Part shown: positions 47,924-61,463 of the stretch, one piece after another
How the letters are laid out: each line of letters opens with the position of its first letter
Numbering within the stretch: the first letter of the stretch is position 1
NCBI GenBank assembly: GCA_015056625.1
Contig: SVFY01000011.1
Coordinates: 1 to 64,000, forward strand
From: Butyrivibrio sp.
Lineage (GTDB): Bacteria; Bacillota; Clostridia; Lachnospirales; Lachnospiraceae
DNA length: 64,000 nucleotides
Reading direction: 5' to 3'
Notes under the pieces: generated by a model
The model's database searches: none
Seen by the model: the letters and a program-made list of their open reading frames with translations, nothing else
What the model was told of the DNA's origin: nothing
Made by a program: the position numbers and the translations under genes

Positions 47924-48032
47924 CGACAGGGGCGGTTTGCTGACAGGGGGACGGTTCTTTTGTCAGATTTTATCAAAATAAAATCTGACAAAAGAACCGT
48001 CCCCCTGTCAGCAAACCGTCCCCTCTGTCACG
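47924..48032. repeat. Second long REP/MITE-like hairpin
   Basis: The inner 40 bases of each arm (47933-47972 and 47979-48018) pair perfectly around loop TCAAAA; the outer part pairs with small bulges. It shares words such as GGACGGTTCT, TTGTCAG and GCTGACA with the hairpin at 22115-22240, in the same layout. It lies just after the rnf terminator. Confidence 0.82.
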
Positions 48033-48094
48033 AAAGAACCGCTTTTCCACCCTCAATTTATAAATTATTTATAAACACACAAAAATTTTTATAA

Positions 48095-48128
48095 ATATGA
48101 TAATTTGTATGATTATCCGTATTATAAT
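48095..48128 (+). promoter_or_regulatory. Direct-repeat promoter of the small WWW-type gene
   Basis: TATGAT (48096-48101), six bases, TATGAT (48108-48113). A perfect -10 TATAAT lies at 48123-48128 (gap of 9); TAATAT at 48125 would give the gap of 11 seen in the three related promoters. It precedes the gene beginning near 48161-48177. Confidence 0.7.
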
Positions 48129-48160
48129 ATGTTGCTGTAGAGTGTGTAATAACGCTTATT

Positions 48161-48466
48161 ATGAGGGTGAGATGTGATGAGAAAAAGAATATTGAAATGG
48201 GGGGGCTGGCACCACTTACAGCACTATTTATGTGTCTTACTGTGATGCTTAGTCCGGTGACGGCCTTAGCTTCAGAGGGGAACGCAGCTACGGCTTCAGA
48301 AGTTACTATTGAGGAAGAGGAGACACCTCTTGTTGCTACTCCGCAGGAGCGAAGAACTCAGGACAACTGGTGGTGGATGATCCTTCTTGCAGCAGCTCTT
48401 GGCATTACTATTGAAGAGTATGTCAGGATAAAAGCCTATAAGGGCGAAGATGATGAGGTTATCTGA
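48161..48466 (+). CDS. Small membrane protein with WWW-type C-terminus, possibly phase variable
   Basis: The frame given encodes 101 residues: a hydrophobic signal segment (GGLAPLTALFMCLTVMLSP, cleavage near TALAS), a short acidic linker, LVATP, eight residues, NWWWMILLAAALGITIEEYV and a charged tail. The best start is ATG 48177 with AGGGTG 7 bases before it, but it is out of frame. The G7 tract at 48199-48205 separates the two frames; eight Gs would give MRKRILKWGGLAPLTALF, an ideal signal peptide. As sequenced, the in-frame starts (48161, 48197) lack a good ribosome site. It may be switched off, slipped, or a sequencing error. Confidence 0.65.
   Translation: MRVRCDEKKNIEMGGLAPLTALFMCLTVMLSPVTALASEGNAATASEVTIEEEETPLVATPQERRTQDNWWWMILLAAALGITIEEYVRIKAYKGEDDEVI
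48199..48205 (+). repeat. G7 homopolymer at the start of a secreted-protein gene
   Basis: Seven consecutive Gs, 20 bases after the best-placed start codon. The ribosome-site frame runs to a stop without a membrane anchor, while the frame after the tract encodes the signal peptide and anchor. A change to eight Gs joins them. Confidence 0.6.
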
Positions 48467-48497
48467 TCATCAAAAACAAAATAATTAAAATTTTTTA

Positions 48498-48530
48498 AGG
48501 TGCAGAACCCGCATGGTTCTGCACTTTTTA
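48498..48530 (+). terminator. Terminator after the small WWW-type gene
   Basis: 10-bp stem GTGCAGAACC / GGTTCTGCAC with loop CGCAT, followed by TTTTTAT. Confidence 0.9.
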
Positions 48531-48575
48531 TAATTTCATCACAAAAAAATCAAAAAAGTACAAAATAAAAGTTTT

Positions 48576-48611
48576 ATATGATGGTTCATATGATGGGTGG
48601 TTTGCTACAAT
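48576..48611 (+). promoter_or_regulatory. Direct-repeat promoter of the first large coiled-coil gene
   Basis: ATATGATGGTTCATATGAT at 48576-48594 holds TATGAT-N6-TATGAT and also the dyad ATATGA-TGGT-TCATAT. After a gap of 11 bases comes the -10 TACAAT (48606-48611) with a TGC extension. The repeat covers the place of a -35 element, which fits a site for an activator that contacts RNA polymerase. Confidence 0.75.
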
Positions 48612-48689
48612 ACATTTACAGTCGTTATTTGGGAAACGAATTGTGGATATTGTGTGTTTGATTATTTTTTTAGGAGGGAACCAATAGTT

Positions 48690-51600
48690 ATGAAAAACAG
48701 AGTAAACAAACAGATCATCAAAGCACTTTCAGTTGGACTTGCAGCCAGCATGGCACTTCAGCCAGTAACTGTATTTGCTGAAGATGCTCCAGCATCTGCA
48801 CCTGCAGAGAAGAGCGAAGAAGCATCTGTACCAGCAGTCGTTGTAGAGCCACAGGATATTGATGGTGGTATCGCAGATGCAGCTCAGGAAGCAGCTGATG
48901 TTGTATCACATGAAGCTCCAGCAGCAGAGGCTCCAGCAGCAGAGGCAGAGGCTCCAGCAGCAGAGGCAGAAGCTCCAGCAGCAGAAGCAGAGGCTCCAGC
49001 AGAGGCTGTTGATAAGGGCGGCGATCTTCAGGTAGCAGCAGCTGATATTGACAAGGTAACTGATGATATCGCAGATACTGCAGTTGCTGGCGAAGCTGGA
49101 ATAGTTGATGTGCTTAAGAATGGTAAGCCAACTTACCATTGGGTACCTACAAGTCCACATACTGGTTATTGGGAGAAGAATACAAAAGACCTTTCTCAGA
49201 CAGTTATCGATGATGCAGATAATCTTGCTATGGATACAAATATAGCTGATGCAACAACAGATATTGATAATGTTAAGAAGGATCTCATCATAGCAGAGAA
49301 TGCTGACGACAAGGAAAACGAGAGCGTTCAGGATGCAGCAGATGCTGTTTATGAGATTGAGACCAAGACAGAAGAAGTTGAGAAAAAAGTTAATGCTGCT
49401 GTTAAGCAGGCTGAAGATCTTGCTGATAACATCAAGAATGCATCTAGTATCGATGATGCTAATAAGTCATACGATGATCTTGACAAGCTTGTAGAGGATA
49501 CCAAGGATTCTGTAGAGTCTTATAACAAGGCTCTTTACGGTGAAGATGGCAATGGTGGTCTTATGAAAGACTACGCTGATGCTCAGGAGAAATTAGCAAA
49601 GTATAAGGGTATCTACAAGGAAGCTATCGAAGGTAAGGACGGCGTAGAAGGTGACGGCGCTTCTAAGGCAGCACAGGTTGCTTATGACAAGGTTGAAGAT
49701 GCTGAGGAAACAGTAAAAGATCTTGAAAAAGCAATTGCTGAGGCTAAGAAAAACATCGATAAAGTAAATGCCGGTGCTATTAAGATAGCTGAAATCCAGG
49801 AAGAACTCGCTGAGCTTGAGAAGGCAGAAGAGAAGGATACAGCTGCTATCGCTGCTAAGCAGGGTGAGCTCCTTGAGACAGTTATTAAGTCATCATATGC
49901 TGATGGCCTGATTGAAGGTGCAGGTGAAGTTGTAGGTGTTAAGAAAGTAATGGATGGCAACTTCCTGGTATTCTATAAGGATGAACGCGGAGTTATGCAG
50001 AGCCCTAAGTGGTTTTCTTATGATACAACTGATGGTCAGTTCCTTATCTATGAGAGAACTTCAGAGGAACTTACTGCAGAAGCATACCGCTTAGAGTATA
50101 AGGCTACTTACCCACATGTTGCTGAAGATAAGCTTGAAGTGTATTCCTATGATGATCCTATTTGGGGCAGACTGTACTATACTCTTGATGAGCTTGAATG
50201 GTACGCTAATCATGGTCAATTAACAGAGGCTTATGATGAGGAAAATAACGTTCATTATTATGTTTTTGGAGAACATGACGGACAGGAAAGAGTTATTGTA
50301 ACACCTGTGAATGCTCCTAGATCAAAGAACGGAATTGCTGTTGGTAAGTCAGTAACAGACAAGGTTATTTCTAACAAATCTACTGTATATGTTGTTAAGG
50401 ACGGCAAGCTCTACAGGCAGGTTGTTGGTACTGTAACAGAGAACAGCTATACCAGAGTAAATGAGGTTAAGACCGATTATCGCGAGACCAGGTATACTAA
50501 GGCTGAGAGAGATGAGATTATTAGGCAGCTTGAGGGACAGCTTGGCAAAGATAAGGTTATGTTTGTAGAGGCGTCTAATACTGAGAAGCAGTCTGAGATA
50601 TACTATCAGCTTACCGGTTCTTATGTTCCTCTGTACAAAATTACAATTAACGATGGAGAAATAGAAGAGTATGTAGGAGGTTGGTTTAATAAAGAAGAAA
50701 ATGCAAAGGCGGCTTTCATAAAGAGGTTAGAAGACGCGGGATATGTTGTTACAAGTAGCAATCTTGGCACTACATATAAGAAAGACTCTCTACTCGAACA
50801 AAATATTGGAAAAGAAGAATTTTACGTATGGGGCAAGGTAGACTTTGAAAAGAAAAAAGCTATAGTTATAAAAAATACTGAGAAGTATTCAACTTATGCA
50901 GAGGCATATGCAGCACTACAGAAGCAGATTGGTAATGATAGTGTTACTATAAAGACAGTTGACCATGTTGAATACTGGGTTCCTTATGAAAAGGATGTAA
51001 CCTTTAACTCAACTTCTCATACTGAGCTCCAGGTAACAGATGGCCAGAATGGTAAACAGGATACTCTTTACGCAGTATGCGTTGACTACCTTAAGAAAGA
51101 GTTAAAATCAACAAATAATAATGTTGTTATTTCAGAGCAGGCATACAAGAATACTGTAGAGATGCTTAGTGTTCTTGAAGAGTTCTCAAAGAAGGATAAG
51201 GGACTTGATACAAACAGCAAAGAGTTCAAGCAGCTTATCGCTGATGCCAAGAATCTTATTGCGAAGTACGAGAGATATGCTTCAGAGACAAATGATGTTA
51301 AGGAAGACCTTAAGCAGGCTAAAGATGATATCAGGACTCTTCAGGGTGCTATAAATGATCTTGACACAGCACATACAGAGAAGACAGCTGGTGAGATCCT
51401 TGCTCTTAATGTAGATTTTGCTGACTACTTCAAGGTAACTGACGATATCATCAAGGATTACTTTGGTGATGAGAGCTGGGATGAGCTTGACGAAGAAGAA
51501 CTTGCAGAGATAATTGATAAGAACAAGAGTGAGCTTAAGGACATGAAAGTTGATGAGTTCATGGACTTCCTTGATTACCTTAAGGATAAGGCTGAGGAAA

Positions 51601-52166
51601 AGAAGGCTGATATCGAAAATCTTCTTGACGAACTTATCGACAAGCGTGACAAGTCAGCAGAAGACCTCAAGGATACAATCGAGCGTCTTACACCACCTTC
51701 AAGTGGTGATGATGACGACACAACAACAGGTGGTGGCGGAGATGAGACAACTCCATTCATCCCTGTAGCTGTAACTCCTGCAACAAACGTAGTTGCTCCA
51801 GCAGTTGACAACGCACAGGCTCCAGCAGTTCTTGGTGCTAGAACAACAAGAAGATCAGCAGCTAAGGCAGCAGCTGATACTGAGACTGTAGCAACAGATA
51901 ACAGCAATGGTAATAACGACAATGCAGCAGTAGCTGGTGCACAGAAGGAAGAGACCAAGACTCCAGAAGCTCCTAAGGAAGAGACTAAGATCGAAGATAC
52001 AGAGACAGCTCTTGCAGCAACTCCTGAACTTGAGGAGAAGGGCTTTGCATGGTGGTGGCTCCTCATCCTTGCAGCTATCGCAGGCGTATCTGTAGAAGAG
52101 TATGCAAGAAGAAAGAGCAACAAGGCTAAGGCAGAGGCTAAGGACTCTACAAAGATCAATAAGTAA
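48690..52166 (+). CDS. Large secreted coiled-coil protein 1 with WWW-type C-terminus
   Basis: 1158 residues from ATG 48690, behind TAGGAGGG. Signal peptide (NKQIIKALSVGLAASMALQP, cleavage near VFAED). Then an Ala/Pro/Glu repeat region (about 72-110, APAAEAE units), Asp/Glu/Lys/Ala-rich coiled coil (about 175-400), a tyrosine-rich mixed region (about 405-850) with repeated short strands, a second coiled coil (about 860-1010), a Ser/Asp/Gly/Pro linker with VLGARTTRRSA, and the C-terminus: LAATP near 1109, eight residues, WWWLLILAAIAGVSVEEYAR, basic tail. No LPxTG is present. Probably an anchored surface fibre or adhesin; function unknown. Confidence 0.85.
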   Translation: MKNRVNKQIIKALSVGLAASMALQPVTVFAEDAPASAPAEKSEEASVPAVVVEPQDIDGGIADAAQEAADVVSHEAPAAEAPAAEAEAPAAEAEAPAAEAEAPAEAVDKGGDLQVAAADIDKVTDDIADTAVAGEAGIVDVLKNGKPTYHWVPTSPHTGYWEKNTKDLSQTVIDDADNLAMDTNIADATTDIDNVKKDLIIAENADDKENESVQDAADAVYEIETKTEEVEKKVNAAVKQAEDLADNIKNASSIDDANKSYDDLDKLVEDTKDSVESYNKALYGEDGNGGLMKDYADAQEKLAKYKGIYKEAIEGKDGVEGDGASKAAQVAYDKVEDAEETVKDLEKAIAEAKKNIDKVNAGAIKIAEIQEELAELEKAEEKDTAAIAAKQGELLETVIKSSYADGLIEGAGEVVGVKKVMDGNFLVFYKDERGVMQSPKWFSYDTTDGQFLIYERTSEELTAEAYRLEYKATYPHVAEDKLEVYSYDDPIWGRLYYTLDELEWYANHGQLTEAYDEENNVHYYVFGEHDGQERVIVTPVNAPRSKNGIAVGKSVTDKVISNKSTVYVVKDGKLYRQVVGTVTENSYTRVNEVKTDYRETRYTKAERDEIIRQLEGQLGKDKVMFVEASNTEKQSEIYYQLTGSYVPLYKITINDGEIEEYVGGWFNKEENAKAAFIKRLEDAGYVVTSSNLGTTYKKDSLLEQNIGKEEFYVWGKVDFEKKKAIVIKNTEKYSTYAEAYAALQKQIGNDSVTIKTVDHVEYWVPYEKDVTFNSTSHTELQVTDGQNGKQDTLYAVCVDYLKKELKSTNNNVVISEQAYKNTVEMLSVLEEFSKKDKGLDTNSKEFKQLIADAKNLIAKYERYASETNDVKEDLKQAKDDIRTLQGAINDLDTAHTEKTAGEILALNVDFADYFKVTDDIIKDYFGDESWDELDEEELAEIIDKNKSELKDMKVDEFMDFLDYLKDKAEEKKADIENLLDELIDKRDKSAEDLKDTIERLTPPSSGDDDDTTTGGGGDETTPFIPVAVTPATNVVAPAVDNAQAPAVLGARTTRRSAAKAAADTETVATDNSNGNNDNAAVAGAQKEETKTPEAPKEETKIEDTETALAATPELEEKGFAWWWLLILAAIAGVSVEEYARRKSNKAKAEAKDSTKINK

Positions 52167-52195
52167 TTTTCTAATCAAACACATTTTTTATAAAA

Positions 52196-52226
52196 AGAAG
52201 GGCGGATCATATGATCCGCTCTTCTT
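52196..52226 (+). terminator. Terminator after large coiled-coil gene 1
   Basis: Stem-loop AAGAAGGGCGGATCAT / ATGATCCGCTCTTCTT with almost no loop. A nearly identical structure follows the second large gene. Confidence 0.82.
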
Positions 52227-52236
52227 GTATGCATAA

Positions 52237-52266
52237 AAAATGCGCAGTCTTGAGACTGCGCATTTT
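52237..52266. terminator. Terminator of the first Rpn gene
   Basis: 12-bp stem AAAATGCGCAGT / ACTGCGCATTTT with loop CTTGAG, directly downstream of the minus-strand Rpn gene; A-rich on the left, so it reads as a T tail for the minus strand. Confidence 0.8.
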
Positions 52267-52271
52267 CCACT

Positions 52272-52472
52272 TTATTGAGATTCATATTTACTGAGTTTTT
52301 TCTGGAGCTCAGCGATGGTAGCATCTTTATCAGCGATGGTAGCATCTTTATCAGCGATGGTAGCATCTTTATCAGCGATGGTAGCATTTGCATCATCGAG
52401 CTTCTCCTGAAGTTCATCAATCATGTACTTGACTGTGTTTCTATCGAGAATCTGAAGTTCTTTTGACCACAT
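52272..52472 (-). CDS. Possible internal C-terminal Rpn product (antitoxin-like), copy 1
   Basis: On the minus strand an in-frame ATG at 52472 (MWSKELQILDRN) has the sequence GAAAGGG eight bases before it, a good internal ribosome site inside the nuclease gene. Translation would give a 66-residue helical protein containing the coiled coil and repeats. Intragenic small proteins of this kind are reported for Rpn genes and neutralise the full-length nuclease. Here it is an inference from the ribosome site and family precedent. Confidence 0.4.
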   Translation of the reverse strand: MWSKELQILDRNTVKYMIDELQEKLDDANATIADKDATIADKDATIADKDATIAELQKKLSKYESQ

Positions 52473-53297
52473 CTCCATCACCCTTTCTATGTTCTGACAT
52501 AGGTCATATAAATCAGAATACATGGACTTAAAACCTGGATATTTGGTAATCAGTTCAATGATGTATTTGGGCTCGTCGCACCCTAGGAACGTAAGCCATG
52601 CATCAAGTTCACTTTTTATACCTCTATTATGAAGTTTCTCAAGGAAAATATCAATCGGAATAAAGATAAAGTTCTGGAGCATGTTCAGGTTTATTCCAGT
52701 GTTTGAAGTGGTTGAGAATCTGTGGACATATTCGTTTTTGAATTCCCAGAAGCAAGCAGGACTGCTTTCTAAAAAGACTATGGTGTAGACAGGAGCGATA
52801 TCCTTATAACTGAATTTTGATTTGGTTTTATCCCTTAGCCGCTTGTATTGTCTAAGAAGCAGATCTGCGGAGTAGCAGGATGCTCTTTCACCGGTGAATA
52901 GATATCCAAGCTTCTGGACTTCAATGTTGGCAAGGGATTTGTTCTCCAATTCAACAACGATGTCTGTAATAACAAGGGACATTTCGTCTCCAAGACGGGT
53001 GCCATCATTTGGGAGAACATCTTTGACTTTGACCTGCCTTTCTAGTAGAACACTCAGCAGGCTTGAGAGTCTGTCAGGAGCGTATTCCGGATTAAGGACT
53101 TCTTTGAAAAAACTGTCGTATAGCATTTTGACGCCCTTGTTTCCAATGCAGATATCAAGAAATTCTTCTTGTTGATCATTACTCCAGTTTTCATAAATGT
53201 TGGATAGCTTTGAGCTTTTCCTGATGTCATCAAGAATTAGTTCTTTTCCCCTGATTGAAGGAAAGAACTGTGATAGTTTGGTTTCTCTGTAATTCAT
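52272..53297 (-). CDS. Rpn/PD-(D/E)XK nuclease-transposase family protein, copy 1
   Basis: 341 residues in the PF12784-like group. The nuclease core is visible: FFKEVLNPEYAPDRLSSLL, then D in LVITDIVVELE and E-x-Q in LANIEVQKLGYL, with YSADLLLRQYKRLRDK following. The C-terminus is a predicted coiled coil ending in three perfect seven-residue repeats (ATIADKD). AAAGGA precedes the ATG. Family members in E. coli promote recombination or act as toxic antiphage nucleases with an antitoxin made from the 3' end. It is divergent from large gene 2. Confidence 0.85.
   Translation of the reverse strand: MNYRETKLSQFFPSIRGKELILDDIRKSSKLSNIYENWSNDQQEEFLDICIGNKGVKMLYDSFFKEVLNPEYAPDRLSSLLSVLLERQVKVKDVLPNDGTRLGDEMSLVITDIVVELENKSLANIEVQKLGYLFTGERASCYSADLLLRQYKRLRDKTKSKFSYKDIAPVYTIVFLESSPACFWEFKNEYVHRFSTTSNTGINLNMLQNFIFIPIDIFLEKLHNRGIKSELDAWLTFLGCDEPKYIIELITKYPGFKSMYSDLYDLCQNIERVMEMWSKELQILDRNTVKYMIDELQEKLDDANATIADKDATIADKDATIADKDATIAELQKKLSKYESQ
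52311..52386. repeat. 21-bp tandem repeat inside Rpn copy 1
   Basis: Three perfect copies of a 21-base unit (52311-52331, 52332-52352, 52353-52373) and a partial fourth. It encodes the heptad ATIADKD on the minus strand, so copy-number change keeps the frame and lengthens the coiled coil by two helical turns per unit. The other Rpn gene has only degenerate copies. Confidence 0.9.
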
Positions 53298-53330
53298 TTA
53301 ATTCCTTTCTTTGCCTTGAATGTTGATATT

Positions 53331-53381
53331 ATCAGCGAAAATGCTGATGCCACGAATGTGACAGCCTGCTCGGAATGAGCA
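53331..53381 (-). promoter_or_regulatory. Structured leader of Rpn copy 1
   Basis: Three adjacent hairpins: ATCAGC / GCTGAT, CAC-GAAT-GTG and TGCTC / GAGCA. The first two have counterparts with changed but still paired bases upstream of Rpn copy 2 (61190-61218). They lie 34 or more bases before the start codon. Confidence 0.45.
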
Positions 53382-53545
53382 TGATAAGAGTTATGATAGC
53401 AGATTTTTTTCCGGAAATCTTTAAGAAAAACAGCAGAAATTCTTAAGATATTATGAAGGACATCGCTAAGAAGCGTCATTTGAAATGTAATAGCTTTATT
53501 TTTGAAACTATTTCTAAAACGATTAAGATTGCATGATCGTGCTAA

Positions 53546-53559
53546 TGTAAACGGTTACA
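53546..53559. promoter_or_regulatory. cre-like / LacI-family operator-like site
   Basis: TGTAAACGGTTACA agrees with the catabolite responsive element consensus TGWNANCGNTNWCA at all defined positions. It is about 124 bases upstream of the direct-repeat promoter of large gene 2. Single site, identified by pattern only. Confidence 0.35.
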
Positions 53560-53682
53560 CAATCTAAACAGAATCTTAAATTCATAAACCAAATGGAAAC
53601 GAATATTACCAAAACAGTTCCGATTATAAACTCCCCATAAACACTGGCTTAAGCCTTGATTAAACAACAAAATTTCGGCCAA

Positions 53683-53718
53683 ATATGATGGTTCATATGA
53701 TTTTTATGGTGTTATTCT
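53683..53718 (+). promoter_or_regulatory. Direct-repeat promoter of the second large coiled-coil gene
   Basis: ATATGATGGTTCATATGAT at 53683-53701, the same 19 bases as at 48576. After an 11-base gap comes TATTCT (53713-53718) with a TGT extension. Sequence around the motif otherwise differs from that at 48576, so the motif itself appears to be conserved. Confidence 0.75.
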
Positions 53719-53780
53719 TACCTCCGAGCTCAGGAAAAACGAAAAAACATATTTGATTATTGAAGAAGAGGTAGAAAACA

Positions 53781-56519
53781 ATGAAAAAGAATTTTTTAAA
53801 CAACCAGATCATTAAAGCACTTTCAATCGGACTTTCAGCCAGCATGGCAATGCAGCCACTTACAGCTCTTGCAAATGAAGGTGAGAACATTACAGATACA
53901 GATGAAAACGTTCTTGAGGTAACAGATGCTCAGGAAGATAGCGCAGAGTCTTCAGAAAAGACTTATGAGGAGGCAAAGGAAGCAGTTGGGGATGCAGATG
54001 ATGCCATAGATACAGCTGCTGAGGCAGTTGATACAGCAGATGAGGTTACATCAGAGAATTATGAGGAGGCCAAAGAGGCCCTTGAAGATGCAAACCGCGC
54101 AGTAGAGGATGCAGAGATCCAGGTTGGTGCAGCTGGGATTACCAACAATGAAGGTCAGGAAGCACTTAATGAGATCGGCGTAGATATTACTATAATAGAT
54201 GACAAAACTCAGGAAGCTGAGGATACATATAAAGAGGCAGTGGAAGCAGCAGAGGCTGCTGAGAAGGCCAGCGAGAGCATTGATATTAATACAACAACAT
54301 CAGAGCAGGCAGACAAAATAGTTAAGACTGTAGAGGAGAATGTTAAGACAGCAGAGGATAAGCTTGCTGAGGCAAATGGAAAGCTTGATGAAGCCCAGAG
54401 TGCTTATGATGCAGCCCTTGAGGCTTATGAGGAACTTAAGAGAGATGTAGAAGCAACAGAGCTTTCTATCGCAGATGCAAAGGATGATCTTGAAATTGCA
54501 AGAAAGGCTCTTGATGACGCCAAGGATCAGGTGGCAGATGCAGCTGAAGATGTAAATGATGAGTATGAAGACATCAAAAATTCAGGCTATCAGCAGATCA
54601 TAGACGCACAGAAAGAGATTTCCGAGATGACAGGTGACGAGGATGATTACCAGGACAAGCTTGATGCTCTTTCTAAGCTCATCATCAAGTATTACATTCT
54701 TGAGAATACTGAAATTGACGAGGGAACAAGTATTGACTTTGGAGAAGATTCTTTTTCCTTTATTACAGATTATGAGAAGGATGAAGATGGCAATTATGTA
54801 GTTGACGAAAATGGCAATTACAAGCCGATCTCAACTCCGGTTGATGTAAGATACGTAACATATACGGTAAACGGCGAGGAAGTTACCAGAAAGTATGAGT
54901 ATTCACAGACAGAAGGAGTAATTGCAGTTTCTGAAAAAGAGATAACTCTTGATACAGAGGAAATCACTCTTAAGGAAGAGGTTCCTGAGAGCTATTCAAC
55001 AGAAGATGGAGCATCTGTTTACAAAGAGACAGAGACAAGCCATGTGGTTTATATTGACACAGAGGATGCTACAAAAGGCTTCTATGCCATCGACACAGAG
55101 GATGAGGATTCAATTGTAAGCGTAGAGGGTACGGCCCCGAAGAATACTAAAAAAGTAAAATACTACGAAGTAAAGGGATCTGAGACCAAGTCTTATGACG
55201 AAGTGGTTACACATACAGTTGTTGATACTTACAAAGATGAGACAGTTCCTGTAGAGGATCCCAAGACGGCAGGAAACATAGTCGATCTTTCCAAAAAGGT
55301 AAAAAACTATTATAACGAAGGCTATGATGTAACTGTTACTTACAAGCATTTCTGGACAGGTGAGGAAGAGGTTGTAGATATCAACAGTCTTGGAACCTGG
55401 AAAGCTATAAAGGCATTCTTTAAGAGCCTTGTGGGTATCAATTCTTTCTCAGTTCAGGCTTATACCACAGAGCAGGTTCCGGATGAGACTCATGAGGAGG
55501 CCGGAATTTACGAGACTGTTACAAAAACATATCTTGTTGAGACCAAGAAAAAAGGTAAAAAGACATACGAGCTCAAGGACTTTGTTGTAAAGAAAACCCT
55601 TTATGATGCTACCGATTATACAAAATACACAGCACATCAGGATGCGGTAACAGCTGACATCCACAACATCTATACATCAAGTACACAGATCGGTTCAACT
55701 GATGATGAAGAGTTTGAGCAGGCTGTAGCTGAGCAGAACGAAGCACTTGAAAATGCTGATAATGCCAAGAAGGCAGCAGATAAAGCAAAGACAGCATACC
55801 TTGATGCTCTTAAAAAGGTTGAAGAGGCTCAGAAAAAGGTTGATGAGCTTGAAAGCGCAAGCGTTTCGAAAAAAGACCTTGTGGCAGCACAATATGAACT
55901 TAAGATAGCGCTTGCAGAGCTGGAGACTGCAGAGGAGATTAAAGACAAAGCCAAGGAAGCCATGGACGATGCCAAGGAAGCCCTCGACGATGCCACCAGG
56001 AAAGCACAGGAGATCAGAAATAAAGAGTCTGATAGTTCAGACAGAGGAAGCTCAGATGATGGATCAAATGATGGAGAATCCGGAAGTAGCAGCGATGGTA
56101 CAACAGGGGGCAACACAACTCCTGCAATCGTAGTAATTCCAACAACTCCGGCTGTTATTCCTGTAGCAGCAGATCAGGCAGCAGTTCTTGGAGAAGCAAG
56201 AACACCAGCTCAAAGAGCAGCTGCAGCTAACGCAAGATCTGTGTCTGCCAGCAATGGCAATGAGGACGGCAACGGTAACGGCAGTGACGCAGCAGTTGTT
56301 GGTGCACAGAAGGAGGATACCAAGACTCCAGAGTCTCCTAAGAAGGAGACCACAATTGAAGAGACAAAGACAGCTCTTGCAGCAACTCCTGAACTTGAGG
56401 AGAAGGGCTTTGCATGGTGGTGGCTCCTTATCCTTGCAGCTATCGCAGGCGTATCTGTAGAAGAGTATGCAAGAAGAAAGAGCAACAAGGCTAAGGACTC
56501 TACTAAGATCAATAAGTAA
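53781..56519 (+). CDS. Large secreted coiled-coil protein 2 with WWW-type C-terminus
   Basis: 912 residues. The signal peptide NQIIKALSIGLSASMAMQP resembles that of protein 1. Ala/Glu/Asp-rich coiled coil runs from about 40 to 280, a beta-rich middle region with KEEVPESYSTEDGASVYKET-type segments from about 300 to 620, a second coiled coil from about 640 to 750, a Ser/Asp/Gly linker, VLGEARTPAQRAAAA, then LAATP at 866-870 and WWW at 879-881 followed by the same hydrophobic stretch and basic tail. From the LAATP codons through the terminator the DNA is almost identical to gene 1, while the middle is different. Start ATG behind GAAGAGG. Confidence 0.85.
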   Translation: MKKNFLNNQIIKALSIGLSASMAMQPLTALANEGENITDTDENVLEVTDAQEDSAESSEKTYEEAKEAVGDADDAIDTAAEAVDTADEVTSENYEEAKEALEDANRAVEDAEIQVGAAGITNNEGQEALNEIGVDITIIDDKTQEAEDTYKEAVEAAEAAEKASESIDINTTTSEQADKIVKTVEENVKTAEDKLAEANGKLDEAQSAYDAALEAYEELKRDVEATELSIADAKDDLEIARKALDDAKDQVADAAEDVNDEYEDIKNSGYQQIIDAQKEISEMTGDEDDYQDKLDALSKLIIKYYILENTEIDEGTSIDFGEDSFSFITDYEKDEDGNYVVDENGNYKPISTPVDVRYVTYTVNGEEVTRKYEYSQTEGVIAVSEKEITLDTEEITLKEEVPESYSTEDGASVYKETETSHVVYIDTEDATKGFYAIDTEDEDSIVSVEGTAPKNTKKVKYYEVKGSETKSYDEVVTHTVVDTYKDETVPVEDPKTAGNIVDLSKKVKNYYNEGYDVTVTYKHFWTGEEEVVDINSLGTWKAIKAFFKSLVGINSFSVQAYTTEQVPDETHEEAGIYETVTKTYLVETKKKGKKTYELKDFVVKKTLYDATDYTKYTAHQDAVTADIHNIYTSSTQIGSTDDEEFEQAVAEQNEALENADNAKKAADKAKTAYLDALKKVEEAQKKVDELESASVSKKDLVAAQYELKIALAELETAEEIKDKAKEAMDDAKEALDDATRKAQEIRNKESDSSDRGSSDDGSNDGESGSSSDGTTGGNTTPAIVVIPTTPAVIPVAADQAAVLGEARTPAQRAAAANARSVSASNGNEDGNGNGSDAAVVGAQKEDTKTPESPKKETTIEETKTALAATPELEEKGFAWWWLLILAAIAGVSVEEYARRKSNKAKDSTKINK

Positions 56520-56550
56520 TTCTCTAATCAAACACATTTTTTATAAAGAG

Positions 56551-56576
56551 AAGAGCGGATCATATGATCCGCTCTT
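56551..56576 (+). terminator. Terminator after large coiled-coil gene 2
   Basis: Perfect 13-bp stem AAGAGCGGATCAT / ATGATCCGCTCTT without a loop, near-identical to that at 52196. Confidence 0.85.
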
Positions 56577-56662
56577 CTTGGTTATTGAATTCAAGCAGAG
56601 CTCATATTGTTCACGCATATAATTATCTGTATAATTGAAATATATTCTTTTAGAGAAGGTAT

Positions 56663-57013
56663 TTGGATATGAGTATCAGCGAAAAGATTTTCAGTTTATT
56701 GGATGAAAGAGGAATGAGCCAAAGAGAGTTTTCCAGGAAAACAGGGATAACTCAAAGTACGATCAGTGACTGGAAGAGAAAAAACACCAATCCATCTGCT
56801 GATAAGATCATTGCTATTTGTGATGTTCTTAAGGTTAGTCCTTATGAGCTGTTACAAGAAGGCGACTCGAATGATGAATTAAAAAAAGTAGATTATAGGA
56901 TGGTCAGCAAAGGGACTGATACATATCAATTGATCATAGATTTTGAGTCACTAAATCATGACAACAAGCAGAGGCTTTTAGGCTATTTGTCCGCATTGAA
57001 GGATTTGCAATAA
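56663..57013 (+). CDS. XRE-family transcriptional regulator
   Basis: 116 residues. The N-terminal 65 form a Cro/CI helix-turn-helix: MSQREFSRKTGITQSTISDW, then ADKIIAICDVLKVSPYELL. The remaining 50 residues are a short helical tail without a recognised domain. It precedes the AAA+ gene by about 107 bases in the same orientation and may regulate that operon. Base composition is more AT-rich than the core genes. Confidence 0.88.
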   Translation: MDMSISEKIFSLLDERGMSQREFSRKTGITQSTISDWKRKNTNPSADKIIAICDVLKVSPYELLQEGDSNDELKKVDYRMVSKGTDTYQLIIDFESLNHDNKQRLLGYLSALKDLQ

Positions 57014-57119
57014 CTATTAGATCCGCATGTTTCTATTGACATGTGGATTTTATTTTATTACGATGAACGTATATACGGTAAGCGTATGCATATACAATCG
57101 TGCAAACGGAGGAGGCATT

Positions 57120-59060
57120 ATGCAATTTTTCAAGGGATTATTAAAGATACCAGAATTATATTATCGCGATAAGGATGCGGTTCAAACTACTGCCAAAACT
57201 CTTAACACGAAGTACTGGCTTCATGAAAACGGTAGTAGATACCATATCCTGGCAAGTGAGGTAACGGTCAATCGGATTACATTCATTACAATGTATGAAG
57301 GGGGAGAGACATCTATTGAAGATGTTCGGGAGAACTGCGAGATGTTCATTGAGGAGCTATGTTCTGCTCATGGCAGCCAGCATTTAGATGCTTATTCAAA
57401 TCAGATGAAGATTACGGAGATAACATTGGATAGTTTTTGTAATCTCTTTTCCGAGGATTTGCTTAATAAAATGTATGAGGATAAAACTGCTATCATGGGT
57501 ATTCTTCATATTGATAACACGAAGTTTGTCTGCAAAGAGGAACTGTTGGAACCATTTAGCAATTATAAACAATTTACGCGGAGATACCTGGATAACAGAG
57601 AACTTATGAGGATAAGAAATGGGAGGGTGAGGTCAGATAGTATAGTGTTTCAACCGGTACATTATATTGTCCTTGAAAATAACGCAGAAATAATAAAACA
57701 GATAGATGATGAGCTCATATATGAACTTAGAAAAGCTAAAAGAATAGTGAGTAGAAGGTGCATACATCTTTCAGAAGACGATGTTTTTAAGATACAGAAA
57801 TACGGTCATAGAATTCAAAATCTAAACAATCTTGACGGAGGGATAGTGTTTGTGGACGTTTCTTCTGACTCTGTAAACGATTTGGTCAGGACAGTATATT
57901 CTGAAACAAATCACTATCGTGGTAGATATGCTGTGGTTTTTCATGTGAATGAAGACGATGAAAAGAGCGTTGAAGAAATAGAAAAAACATGCAGGCTATG
58001 GCCATTTTTCATAATTTGTAATAAACGACTTGGAAGGCGTGATGCAATCAGGCAATTGCTGGAGGTTGCTAAGAGTAATGACATAGATATTTCAAGAAAA
58101 GATTGTCAGGAAATTTTGAAGGCTAACGGAATAAAGAATGAATATACCTTTGATGAAATAAATGACATGTTTAGACGATGGATGCTTACAGTCTACAATA
58201 TTGAAGTTTATCATCCGCAGTACAGAGAAATGATCGAGCAGTACTACAGTAGTGACGCAGGAAATGCTGATGGGTTGAAAGAGCTGGATGAACTTATTGG
58301 ACTTAGAGACGTAAAAGAATTATGCAGGAAGATCATAAGCTTTTATGAGGTTCAAAAAATAAGAAGAGTTTTTTCTGACGAGATTGAGAACATTGGTATG
58401 CATATGGTTTTTACAGGTAATCCAGGAACCGCAAAGACCACAGTCGCGAGACTTATGGCAAGAATACTCAAGCAGAAAGGAATATTGTCTCGTGGAGAGA
58501 TGATTGAAGTGGGAAGAGCTGATCTTGTTGGCAAATATGTAGGTTGGACTGCCAAGACAGTAAAGGACTATTTTCATAAGGCGAAAGGGAATGTGCTTTT
58601 TATTGATGAAGCATATTCTCTTGTTGATGACAACAAGAGCTTTGGTACTGAAGCCATTAATACAATCGTTCAGGAAATGGAGAATTGCAGAAATGATGTT
58701 GTTGTTATCTTTGCAGGTTACAAGAAAGAAATGGCAGAGTTTATCAAGGCCAATAGTGGCCTAGAGAGCAGAATCAGTTTCTTTGTTGATTTTCCGGATT
58801 ATTCAGGAGATGAGCTATTTGGCATTCTTAAGCATCTGGCTAAAAAAGATAACTATGAGCTTGGAGATGATGTTTATGAGAAATTCATGGCTAATATGGA
58901 AATGCGTAATACTCAAAATGGAAACGGAAGATTGGTCAGAAATGAATTTGAAAAGGCAAAGCTCAGGCAGGCTCAGCGAATAATGGGAATGGCAAAGAAG
59001 AGAAGAAAAGAAGCATTGTTTACTTTGGTTGGACAGGATTTCGGAGGTGAAGTTATATGA
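57120..59060 (+). CDS. AAA+ ATPase of the SpoVK/CbbX type with long N-terminal region
   Basis: 646 residues from ATG 57120, which has GGAGG 4 bases upstream; the open frame extends 93 bases further without a ribosome site. About 400 N-terminal residues are unrecognised; the part with GGIVFVDVSSDSVNDLV and YAVVFHVNEDDE may be a degenerate ATPase-like fold. The C-terminal module has Walker A TGNPGTAKTTVARLMARIL near residue 433, Walker B VLFIDEAYSLV near 491 and sensor 1 VVIFAGYKKEM near 532, with an arginine-containing RISFFVDFPDYS segment. It overlaps the next gene by 4 bases, so the two proteins likely act together. Confidence 0.85.
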   Translation: MQFFKGLLKIPELYYRDKDAVQTTAKTLNTKYWLHENGSRYHILASEVTVNRITFITMYEGGETSIEDVRENCEMFIEELCSAHGSQHLDAYSNQMKITEITLDSFCNLFSEDLLNKMYEDKTAIMGILHIDNTKFVCKEELLEPFSNYKQFTRRYLDNRELMRIRNGRVRSDSIVFQPVHYIVLENNAEIIKQIDDELIYELRKAKRIVSRRCIHLSEDDVFKIQKYGHRIQNLNNLDGGIVFVDVSSDSVNDLVRTVYSETNHYRGRYAVVFHVNEDDEKSVEEIEKTCRLWPFFIICNKRLGRRDAIRQLLEVAKSNDIDISRKDCQEILKANGIKNEYTFDEINDMFRRWMLTVYNIEVYHPQYREMIEQYYSSDAGNADGLKELDELIGLRDVKELCRKIISFYEVQKIRRVFSDEIENIGMHMVFTGNPGTAKTTVARLMARILKQKGILSRGEMIEVGRADLVGKYVGWTAKTVKDYFHKAKGNVLFIDEAYSLVDDNKSFGTEAINTIVQEMENCRNDVVVIFAGYKKEMAEFIKANSGLESRISFFVDFPDYSGDELFGILKHLAKKDNYELGDDVYEKFMANMEMRNTQNGNGRLVRNEFEKAKLRQAQRIMGMAKKRRKEALFTLVGQDFGGEVI

Positions 59061-60061
59061 TATACGTTGATTTCAGAAAAGAATGTCTTGGCAGGATCAA
59101 GGAAGAGTATAAAGCGTTTGGCTGGAGTATTAAGTTATACCTTAAAGGAGATACTTCAGATGACAAGGAAGAGCTGGATTTTATCCATCAGACAAATCTC
59201 AAATACTTCGGTCACAGTAAAGATGTGCTAGATGGAGACTTCTATTACATGACAAAGAAAGTTTCCAACAACTCAAAAATGATGAGCAGATTTGAAGTGA
59301 GCTTTTTGTATGATGAGTTCAAAAAGGGAGGCTGGAAGAAGGTTGATCATATCGTGAAGATCAATATCACTTCGGCAACGGATTCCCAGATTACGATTGG
59401 GAATATTGATGATTATGACAGTATAAATAATATGCTGATAGTAAGGCCTGTTAGATACAAAGAAAATGAAGACGATCTCAAGGAGATGGTATTTAGGCAG
59501 ATTGGTGACTTTGCCTTAGTATTGTATATGAGAGTATCAGATGATAAACAGTTACTCACATCCTTCAAGATATCCCAGGAAGTGTTTAAGAATTGGGGAA
59601 AGAGCGAGGATGAGGTGTTTGATAGGGCGCTGGAGAATTCCAGTATTTTATACCCAGAGGCTTTTACAAGAGCAGGAATTAGTATGAAGGAAATAATGGT
59701 ACCTGAACTGGGGAATATGCGAGTTCCTATATTGTATAATGCACCATTTGCTGTTGATGGCGATAAGCTGAAGAGATATGAACATTTAACGGTTACTTGT
59801 CCACAATATCCAAATGGTGCAGTTTCATTCTTTTATCCTAGGGTTAAAGATAAACTGAACAAGGTGTTTGATAACGAAGATTACTATGTCGTCTTTCTAT
59901 CGATTGCTGGATTTGCTGTACATAGTTATTCCAACACTGAGCTGGAAGATCTTGTTGAGGCACTTAAGGATAATAATGAGAGATTTCCGCAGGATACATT
60001 GACAAATTATGTGTATGTTTATCGTGTGGTGGAAGATAAACTTGAACCTGTGATGGTATAA
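59057..60061 (+). CDS. Uncharacterised protein coupled to the AAA+ ATPase
   Basis: 334 residues with no signal peptide or membrane segment. The C-terminal half (ENSSILYPEAFTRAG, GNMRVPILYNAPF, FAVHSYSNTELEDLVEAL) recalls the DUF5688 proteins that are frequent in Lachnospiraceae, but this is from memory and weak. It is translationally coupled to the ATPase, so it may be its substrate adaptor or effector. Confidence 0.7.
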   Translation: MIYVDFRKECLGRIKEEYKAFGWSIKLYLKGDTSDDKEELDFIHQTNLKYFGHSKDVLDGDFYYMTKKVSNNSKMMSRFEVSFLYDEFKKGGWKKVDHIVKINITSATDSQITIGNIDDYDSINNMLIVRPVRYKENEDDLKEMVFRQIGDFALVLYMRVSDDKQLLTSFKISQEVFKNWGKSEDEVFDRALENSSILYPEAFTRAGISMKEIMVPELGNMRVPILYNAPFAVDGDKLKRYEHLTVTCPQYPNGAVSFFYPRVKDKLNKVFDNEDYYVVFLSIAGFAVHSYSNTELEDLVEALKDNNERFPQDTLTNYVYVYRVVEDKLEPVMV

Positions 60062-60066
60062 AAAAG

Positions 60067-60090
60067 TGGCGCAGCCCTTGGGCTGCGCCA
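60067..60090. terminator. Bidirectional terminator between the AAA+ operon and Rpn copy 2
   Basis: 10-bp GC-rich stem TGGCGCAGCC / GGCTGCGCCA with loop CTTG between two converging genes; A-rich sequence is on the left side. Confidence 0.85.
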
Positions 60091-60099
60091 AACATATAT

Positions 60100-60327
60100 T
60101 TATTCTTTTGGTGGTTCATATTTACTGAGTTTTTCCTGAAGCTCTACAATGGTGGATTGCAAATTGGTGATGGTAGCATCCTTGTTAGCAAGAGATGAAC
60201 CCATATTAGCGATGGTAGCATCTTTATTAGCGATGGTAGCATTTGCATCATCGAGCTTCTCCTGAAGTTCATCAATCATGTACTTGACTGTGTTTCTATC
60301 GAGAATCTGAAGTTCTTTTGACCACAT
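60100..60327 (-). CDS. Possible internal C-terminal Rpn product (antitoxin-like), copy 2
   Basis: Same internal ATG as in copy 1 (complement of 60327) with GAAAGGG eight bases upstream. The product would be 75 residues with a longer, less regular coiled coil than copy 1's. Inference from site and family precedent only. Confidence 0.4.
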   Translation of the reverse strand: MWSKELQILDRNTVKYMIDELQEKLDDANATIANKDATIANMGSSLANKDATITNLQSTIVELQEKLSKYEPPKE

Positions 60328-61152
60328 CTCCATCACCCTTTCTATGTTCTGACATAGGTCATATAAATCAGAATACATGGACTTAAAACCTGGATATTTG
60401 GTAATCAGTTCAATGATGTATTTGGGCTCGTCGCACCCTAGGAACGTAAGCCATGCATCAAGTTCACTTTTTATACCTCTATTATGAAGTTTCTCAAGGA
60501 AAATATCAATCGGAATAAAGATAAAGTTCTGGAGCATGTTCAGGTTTATTCCAGTGTTTGAAGTGGTTGAGAATCTGTGGACATATTCGTTTTTGAATTC
60601 CCAGAAGCAAGCAGGACTGCTTTCTAAAAAGACTATGGTGTAGACAGGAGCGATATCCTTATAACTGAATTTTGATTTGGTTTTATCCCTTAGCCGCTTG
60701 TATTGTCTAAGAAGCAGATCTGCGGAGTAGCAGGATGCTCTTTCACCGGTGAATAGATATCCAAGTTTCTGTACTTCTATGTTAGCAAGGGATTTGTCCT
60801 CCAATTCCACTACAATATCTGTAATGACAAGGGACATTTCGTCTCCAAGACGGGTGCTATCATTTGGCAGAACATCCTTAACTTTGACCTTCCTTTCCAG
60901 TAGTATACTTAGCAGATTTGAAAGTCTGTCAGGGGCATATTCTGGATTAAGAACCTCCTTGAAAAAGCTGTCATACAGTATCTTGATGCCTTTATTACCG
61001 GTACAAATATTAAGAAATTCCTCCTGCTGATTGCTGGTCCATGATTCATAAATGTTTTCAAGATTTGGATGCTTCTTAATGTCATCGAAAATTAGTTCTT
61101 TCGTTCTGATGCACGGAAAGAACTGAGATAGATTTGTTTCTTTGTAAGTCAT
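60100..61152 (-). CDS. Rpn/PD-(D/E)XK nuclease-transposase family protein, copy 2
   Basis: 350 residues, same organisation as copy 1: FFKEVLNPEYAPDRLSNLL, D in LVITDIVVELE, E-x-Q in LANIEVQKLGYL, then a C-terminal coiled coil with only loosely repeated heptads (ATIANKDATIANMGSSLANK). The central 537 bases (60229-60765) look identical to 52374-52910 of copy 1, while the 5' part differs at many positions. It is divergent from large gene 3, as copy 1 is from large gene 2. Confidence 0.85.
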   Translation of the reverse strand: MTYKETNLSQFFPCIRTKELIFDDIKKHPNLENIYESWTSNQQEEFLNICTGNKGIKILYDSFFKEVLNPEYAPDRLSNLLSILLERKVKVKDVLPNDSTRLGDEMSLVITDIVVELEDKSLANIEVQKLGYLFTGERASCYSADLLLRQYKRLRDKTKSKFSYKDIAPVYTIVFLESSPACFWEFKNEYVHRFSTTSNTGINLNMLQNFIFIPIDIFLEKLHNRGIKSELDAWLTFLGCDEPKYIIELITKYPGFKSMYSDLYDLCQNIERVMEMWSKELQILDRNTVKYMIDELQEKLDDANATIANKDATIANMGSSLANKDATITNLQSTIVELQEKLSKYEPPKE

Positions 61153-61189
61153 TTGTTTCCTTTCTTTTGCATGATACGTATGGTAAATT

Positions 61190-61218
61190 CAGCGAATCGC
61201 TGGCGCCACGAATGTGGC
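61190..61218 (-). promoter_or_regulatory. Structured leader of Rpn copy 2
   Basis: Hairpins CAGCG-AAT-CGCTG (61190-61202) and GCCAC-GAAT-GTGGC (61205-61218), matching in position and loop the hairpins upstream of copy 1 but with altered stem bases that keep pairing. Confidence 0.45.
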
Positions 61219-61427
61219 TCTTGGCTCTGACTGAGCACGACAAGTGATATCATACACAATTTTCTCCGATAAGTCTTTAAGACTTTCTTAATAATTCTTA
61301 AGATTTTATGAAGAAAAGTCCCCCTAAAAAGGAGTTAGCATCTACTAACTGCGGCCTTTCTAAAATTTCAGTTAACAGTCTCTGAAAGCCGCATGAACAG
61401 CGGCTGAAATAAAAATAAATCGCACAA

Positions 61428-61463
61428 ATATGATGGATTCTATGATTACAGGTGGTGTATCTT
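61428..61463 (+). promoter_or_regulatory. Direct-repeat promoter of the third large coiled-coil gene
   Basis: ATATGATGGATTCTATGAT at 61428-61446: TATGAT-N6-TATGAT is intact although the six spacer bases have changed and the dyad seen at 48576 is lost. The -10 TATCTT (61458-61463) is again 11 bases further on. Confidence 0.7.

Follow-up and report, generated by a model that had tools for sequence, protein, structure and literature searches.

A tandem TATGAT operator in surface-protein promoters of rumen Butyrivibrio and a candidate SARP-type activator with a degenerate GGDEF domain

TATGAT repeats in front of surface-protein genes

The first 64,000 nucleotides of Butyrivibrio sp. contig SVFY01000011.1 (hereafter the window) carry four exact copies of the direct repeat TATGAT-N6-TATGAT on the + strand, at 48096, 48577, 53684 and 61429, each upstream of a surface-protein gene. 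These positions had been correctly given in an initial annotation of this DNA, which set the start of the region as a whole one base early (48095). Four copies compare with 0.01 expected, and four or more were obtained in none of 100 dinucleotide-preserving shuffles. The repeats (operators 1 to 4), the promoter elements around them and the genes downstream are given below; E values refer to the promoter profile R1 described in the next section, and gaps are counted in bases from the end of the repeat to the -10.

48080..48085, +, CAAAAA tract 5' of operator 1, at an UP-element-like position (about -57 to -52 if the -10 lies at gap 11)
48096..48113, +, operator 1, TATGAT-AATTTG-TATGAT, exact match, E 3.1e-7
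48123..48128, +, candidate -10 TATAAT of operator 1, gap 9, overlapping TAATAT at gap 11
48161..48466, +, open frame of a small WWW-type surface protein, 101 amino acids
48561..48565, +, CAAAA tract 5' of operator 2
48577..48594, +, operator 2, TATGAT-GGTTCA-TATGAT, exact match, E 3.3e-9
48606..48611, +, putative -10 TACAAT of operator 2, gap 11
48690..52166, +, coiled-coil surface protein, 1158 amino acids from the ATG, signal peptide and C-terminal WWW membrane anchor assigned by eye; coiled-coil-type matches below cut-off only
53668..53672, +, CAAAA tract 5' of operator 3
53684..53701, +, operator 3, TATGAT-GGTTCA-TATGAT, exact match, E 1.3e-9
53713..53718, +, putative -10 TATTCT of operator 3, gap 11
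53781..56519, +, coiled-coil WWW-type surface protein, 912 amino acids; matches below cut-off only
61429..61446, +, operator 4, TATGAT-GGATTC-TATGAT, exact match, E 3.3e-8
61458..61463, +, putative -10 TATCTT of operator 4, gap 11
61521..64000, +, surface protein, 881 amino acids, open frame running past the window to contig position 64166

As initially described, a -10 follows the repeat by exactly 11 bases in the three large genes (TACAAT, TATTCT and TATCTT) and by 9 (TATAAT) or 11 bases (TAATAT) in the small gene. A dedicated regulator that would bind as a tandem dimer near -35 had been proposed for all four genes, and non-random sites, a fixed gap of 11 and the co-occurrence of a candidate regulator, all computed from sequence, support this proposal. 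A perfect inverted repeat with 41-base arms (GACGGTTCTTTTGTC-type units) lies at 47933-48018, 77 bases 5' of operator 1.

Promoter geometry, distribution and target genes

For the promoter geometry, 114 distinct places with an exact match were compared (the 13 of the window genome G000, further loci and 80 chosen stretches, comprising 17/17 of G060, 7/7 of G057 and part of those of other genomes), a sample and not every match of the genus. Of these, 72 are intergenic and 42 lie in coding sequence. A TANNNT hexamer was found at gap 11 at 44 of the 72 intergenic sites versus none of the 42 coding sites, and every other gap reached at most 7. In the window genome, 11 of 12 promoter-like sites have a -10 at gap 11 (background rate 0.032, p ~4e-16). 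With the -10 at -12 to -7, the two hexamers fall at -41 to -36 and -29 to -24, counted from transcription starts that are predicted here from -10 look-alikes.

The hexamers, 12 bases apart and separated by a variable spacer, had initially been taken as the recognised part. Spacing and variability were borne out, yet the spacer GGTTCA occurs in 4 of 13 genome sites and the conserved element is longer: an alignment of 44 sites shows the consensus ACAAAA, a C-led A-tract, about 16 bases 5' of the repeat and frequently a T after the second hexamer (0.61). CAAAA was detected 10-19 bases upstream of 46/72 intergenic versus 0/42 coding sites; in G000 the tract is present at 8 of 12 sites and absent at operator 4. 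An inverted-repeat reading was also considered, as the GGTTCA spacer gives the palindrome ATATGA-TGGT-TCATAT in 4/13 sites. It was rejected because the direct repeat persists where other spacers destroy the palindrome.

In the whole of the window genome (2.74 Mb, 85% complete), 13 exact sites were found versus one for a reversed-pattern control. Twelve of them are promoter-like, the exception (L010) falling within an open frame of 544 codons between stops that is rich in acidic residues (29% D+E), and one of the twelve (L009) lies at the end of a contig, where no gene can be seen. The other 11 promoter-like sites all stand before surface-protein genes, nine of them directly before genes with signal-peptide-like starts and two before a frame of 66-70 amino acids that is followed by a very large surface protein. 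Listing the genes behind the repeat genome-wide had been suggested as a check in the initial annotation, and its outcome is that the sites are not random. Signal peptides and several gene names were assigned here by visual inspection, and gene calls are longest open frames, uncurated. The profile R1 was built from 44 promoters. In G000 it matched 12 promoters, all at E < 0.002, and no further match had an E value under 0.04; 11 of these 12 match by construction, since they belong to the training set, while site C8:71834 was not used for training and has no TANNNT at gap 11. A search with one mismatch gave 86 matches in G000 versus 16 in the control and was not used for claims.

Across the genus, the exact repeat occurs in 60 of 61 genomes, and since many of these occurrences are chance matches in coding sequence, intergenic and coding matches were separated. 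Profile matches at E <= 0.01 were obtained in 53 of 79 Butyrivibrio genomes (49 with at least two, four with one weak match) and in none of the other 26; many complete genomes carry 4-12 sites and others zero. Among 299 genomes of the family, of which two are Butyrivibrio, the repeat is coupled to a -10 in 38, nearly always once, and more than two coupled matches were found only in G000 (11) and G030 (3). In other genera, 36 of 297 genomes have one or two matches. On this sequence evidence, the TATGAT repeats almost certainly mark a real regulon with an operator of fixed geometry.

The targets were at first assigned to one surface-protein family. A single family is too narrow, as the promoter is common to several seemingly unrelated surface-protein families and, in other species, to exopolysaccharide operons. 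Within the genus it precedes WWW-type proteins, other large surface proteins, an operon of a small protein and a surface protein, Alg14-like glycosyltransferase (exopolysaccharide) operons and an acyltransferase operon. In single cases the full promoter with gap 11 lies before a membrane protein with EAL and HisKA domains, and the exact repeat without a -10 at gap 11 was found before a PilZ protein (L247, G049) and before a chemoreceptor. The EAL-HisKA and PilZ targets (L129 of G011, L247 of G049) are possible further links to cyclic di-GMP.

No Pfam or NCBIfam model named the WWW-type proteins of the window over cut-off, and matches of the surface proteins to SMC, Rad50, SipB and similar models (NCBIfam, Pfam), coiled-coil matches below cut-off, were set aside. 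The small WWW-type protein (48161..48466) has no Pfam match up to E 0.01 and one NCBIfam match below cut-off, to a sortase-dependent family. Matches over cut-off were obtained for two surface proteins outside the window (pAdhesive_15 and Flg_new). The WWW-type anchor with a basic tail ends the surface proteins (~52040-52166, 56400-56519 and on other G000 contigs). Upstream of it, many have a VLGARR-like motif, which recurs in otherwise different surface proteins of G000 and which no family model named in nine proteins scanned. In the small WWW gene, a run of seven G at 48199-48205 lies in the signal-peptide region, where MRKRILK is read in one frame and the signal peptide in another; this may reflect slippage, use of another start or an error in the assembly. 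Two closely related genes on the - strand, at 52272-53297 and 60100-61152, are divergent from operators 3 and 4 and encode proteins with short ATIADKD tandem repeats close to the C-terminus that differ between the copies.

A SARP-like candidate regulator and a co-occurring small protein

In G041 the exact repeat precedes a gene for a protein with a BTAD domain, and for this reason the BTAD family was examined. The candidate of the window genome is a 411-residue protein encoded outside the window (G000:C20:47788-49020), in which an N-terminal OmpR-like winged helix and a BTAD domain, together the SARP/AfsR module, are followed by a degenerate GGDEF domain. The BTAD domain (PF03704) was detected in 19/19 regulator members. 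The GGDEF fold lacks the GG[DE]EF active site. The I-site motif RxxD is present in 45/45 sequences (R347 and D350), 9 and 6 residues before position 356, a distance in line with known I-sites.

A protein of about 411 residues is encoded in all five site-bearing genomes tested (G000, G053, G364, G060, G013; 52-92% mutual identity), where two extra BTAD matches in G013 were set aside as unrelated (21-29% identity). Among site-free genomes, G015 and G032 have no BTAD match, G363 and G037 have homologs at 38-39% and 29-33% identity, and a doubtful match in G051 is no homolog of the candidate, with a 29% homolog elsewhere in that genome. Over the 79 genomes, a homolog of the G000 protein at >=44% identity was found in 44 of 49 genomes with at least two sites versus 0 of 30 with 0-1 site, counts that ignore kinship. 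The five exceptions are genomes of 60-83% completeness; at a completeness of at least 90%, the regulator is present in 29/29 versus 0/19 genomes. Eleven genomes with 0-1 site carry a divergent homolog at 40-43% identity. In the regulator tree, 43 site-bearing members form one clade and seven of the 40-43% homologs a separate one, each with support 1.0, and the recognition helix reads NNL[IL]YQM[HR][KR]Q in most site-bearing members versus NNL[IV]YQF[KR]K[VI] in the 40-43% homologs.

Gene and operator are also linked in some members of the clade. Within 5 kb of the regulator, a site was found at 6 of 17 loci of the 44-52% identity group versus 0 of 33 loci of more distant homologs (probability 8e-4), and none of 53 control loci (those of OmpR-type regulators) has one. 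In G041, G358 and G059 the exact repeat is located 3 bases after a -10-like TATACT 5' of the regulator gene and was kept while the flanks diverged. As this is a repressing position, it suggests that the regulator might repress its own gene in these three genomes. A one-mismatch repeat 270 bases 5' of the regulator in G361 was not counted as evidence.

Several sites are followed by a gene for a small protein (consensus KGTFIVKVDYCQNxTWQGRVxWAEENK..FRSxLEL; loci including L011 and L013 of G000, L218, L260, L486 and L493-L495). It is encoded in 11/11 tested genomes with the regulator or a 40-43% homolog versus 0/5 with none or a distant (~30%) one, and G007 has two regulator copies, each with the small-protein gene about 0.4 kb downstream. 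No Pfam family matches the two members scanned. In the sister clade the small protein is joined to another domain that looks similar, and its gene comes after one for a surface protein with a different promoter. There, a GGTTGCTTTTA block precedes a TAAAAT-type -10 5' of the operon in 5/9 genomes (L500-L503, L507), and no TATGAT repeat was found anywhere in the nine operon stretches. The block is possibly the changed operator of the divergent regulator. A TATGAT-N6-CATGAT before the regulator of G054, also of this clade, was not counted.

Alternative activators and proposed mechanism

SARP/AfsR proteins are described as binding side by side, as a dimer, to tandem repeats across -35; the repeats are 11 (or 22) bp apart and overlap -35 with the 3' one 8 bp from the -10 (PMC10936776). 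The SARPs covered in these accounts come from actinomycetes, where they switch on clusters for secondary metabolites (PMC10936776, PMC10972967). In EmbR of Mycobacterium tuberculosis the added domain is FHA, unlike the GGDEF domain of the candidate (PMC10936776). The SARPs AfsR, DnrI and ActII-ORF4 resemble the candidate and its proposed operator in combining a winged helix with BTAD and in tandem repeats about one helical turn apart over -35 and near the -10, and the downstream repeat of AfsR starts at -29, as it does here if the -10 is at -12 to -7. The candidate differs in its occurrence in rumen Firmicutes, in its proposed surface-protein and exopolysaccharide targets, and in a degenerate GGDEF domain in place of NOD-TPR or nothing. 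In the degenerate-GGDEF receptors of cyclic di-GMP PopA, PelD and CdgG the active-site motif is lost and the RxxD I-site kept, as in the candidate; unlike it, they are not known to be SARP-type transcription factors.

Two further kinds of site were set aside on geometry. LytTR sites, also direct repeats in promoters, lie upstream of -35 and consist of 9-bp repeats with 11-13 bp between them, a period of about 21 bp (PMC6193735), whereas the operator here has a period of 12 bp and takes the place of -35. RemA sites are described as poorly conserved 7-bp repeats spaced by 3 bp (PMC8481266), in contrast to perfect hexamers spaced by 6. No neighbouring regulator recurs at different target loci among the first 20 neighbourhoods, inspected by eye, and neighbours were not retained as activators; those seen near targets are a GntR/YtrA-like gene in a conserved locus of L234 and L241 (also L016), a LacI-like one (L232), a response regulator (L231) and a receiver-only protein (L242).

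The regulon could be real and its activator a core response regulator of OmpR/PhoB type that binds as a head-to-tail dimer over -35 and is also present in site-free species. PhoB, NisR and SpaR promoters, too, have tandem hexamers where a -35 is missing, at about 11 bases from the -10. G000 has seven such regulators, and four orthologue groups (L177-L180) occur in each of the four site-bearing genomes that were compared. For a spa-box-like link to SpaR/NisR, a literature search gave no support. The period of 12, however, is off the 10-11 usual for such sites, and the candidate, whose proposed promoters share this architecture, has no receiver domain. In a survey of 77 loci (five, all from site-free genomes, gave no protein; two further G015 matches were left out), none of the groups formed by 72 regulators of four site-bearing and four site-free genomes tracks the sites: no group of at least two members is confined to site-bearing genomes, none is found in all four of them and absent from the site-free ones, and all seven G000 regulators have relatives in site-free genomes, while seven proteins of G053 and G060 stand alone. 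Nor was a TATGAT site found at any of 53 of these loci, and such an activator appears unlikely. Quite unlikely, in our estimate, is an activator of another family with its origin in this clade, in which case the SARP-like protein would share only ancestry and a co-regulated neighbourhood. It would agree with the site-bearing group being one clade of the regulator tree, with the profiling of PF00486 and PF03704 only, and with other regulator genes near some targets, such as an XRE-type gene at 56663-57013 of the window; it would however turn the linkage at 6/17 loci, the own-promoter sites in three genomes and the match to SARP geometry into coincidence. That the repeats are ordinary A+T-rich, -10-like promoter sequence with no dedicated regulator would fit the likeness of TATGAT to TATAAT and the 42 of 114 places that are chance coding matches. 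This is very improbable given the confinement of G000 sites to surface-gene promoters, gap 11 in 44/72 versus 0/42 sites, one or two matches in only 36/297 genomes of other genera and none in 26/79 of the genus.

The SARP-like protein is the likely activator, a view that must accommodate several contrary points. The period of 12 and the 11 bases to the -10 differ from the 11 bp and 8 bases given for SARPs (PMC10936776). The Pfam winged-helix model matches only 3/19 members, and weakly, and the RxxD motif is found in non-receptor GGDEF domains as well. The threshold of 44% was chosen post hoc, after the data had been seen; site-bearing regulators form one clade, so that the co-occurrence may reflect few evolutionary events; and since PF00486 and PF03704 alone were profiled over the genomes, other clade-specific genes would score equally. 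Among the 30 relatives at 69-99% identity, linkage is hardly seen (1/12 returned loci, weak and partial), and no exact repeat is present in the 340-450 bases 5' of the regulator at these 30 loci. Transcription starts depend on -10 look-alikes alone, and the suggestive PilZ and chemoreceptor sites have no -10 at gap 11.

From the computed regulon, its geometry, the co-occurrence, the linkage and the fold match we infer binding, activation and a ligand. TATGAT-N6-TATGAT would stand in place of a -35 element and accommodate two activator molecules side by side, one per hexamer, which would recruit RNA polymerase to a sigma-A-type -10 without a good -35, while the ACAAAA tract 5' of the repeat probably acts through the alpha subunit. 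The GGDEF-like domain may be a receptor, probably for cyclic di-GMP via the conserved RxxD I-site motif, in which case surface proteins, and exopolysaccharide in other species, would be made when the messenger changes. That cyclic di-GMP gates the regulon is a tentative proposal. Equally tentative is the full picture, in which a SARP-type activator, by fusion to a dead GGDEF domain whose I-site is intact, would have become a transcription factor that responds directly to cyclic di-GMP. In rumen Butyrivibrio it would be the master switch for surface proteins and exopolysaccharide, together with the co-occurring small proteins. The sister clade keeps a diverged regulator and the small protein, with another promoter at the examined operon and a changed recognition helix.

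No description of the control of these surface and exopolysaccharide genes in rumen Butyrivibrio was found in a partial survey of the literature. By their titles, the two papers found to mention both BTAD and GGDEF are surveys of kinase and cyclase architectures. If the proposal is true, a genus about whose regulation little is known would gain a defined operator, a list of targets and one regulator open to testing. Activators of the SARP type, familiar from the control of antibiotics in actinomycetes, would then govern the surface of Firmicutes cells, and it would be suggested that cyclic di-GMP acts directly on transcription in this phylum.

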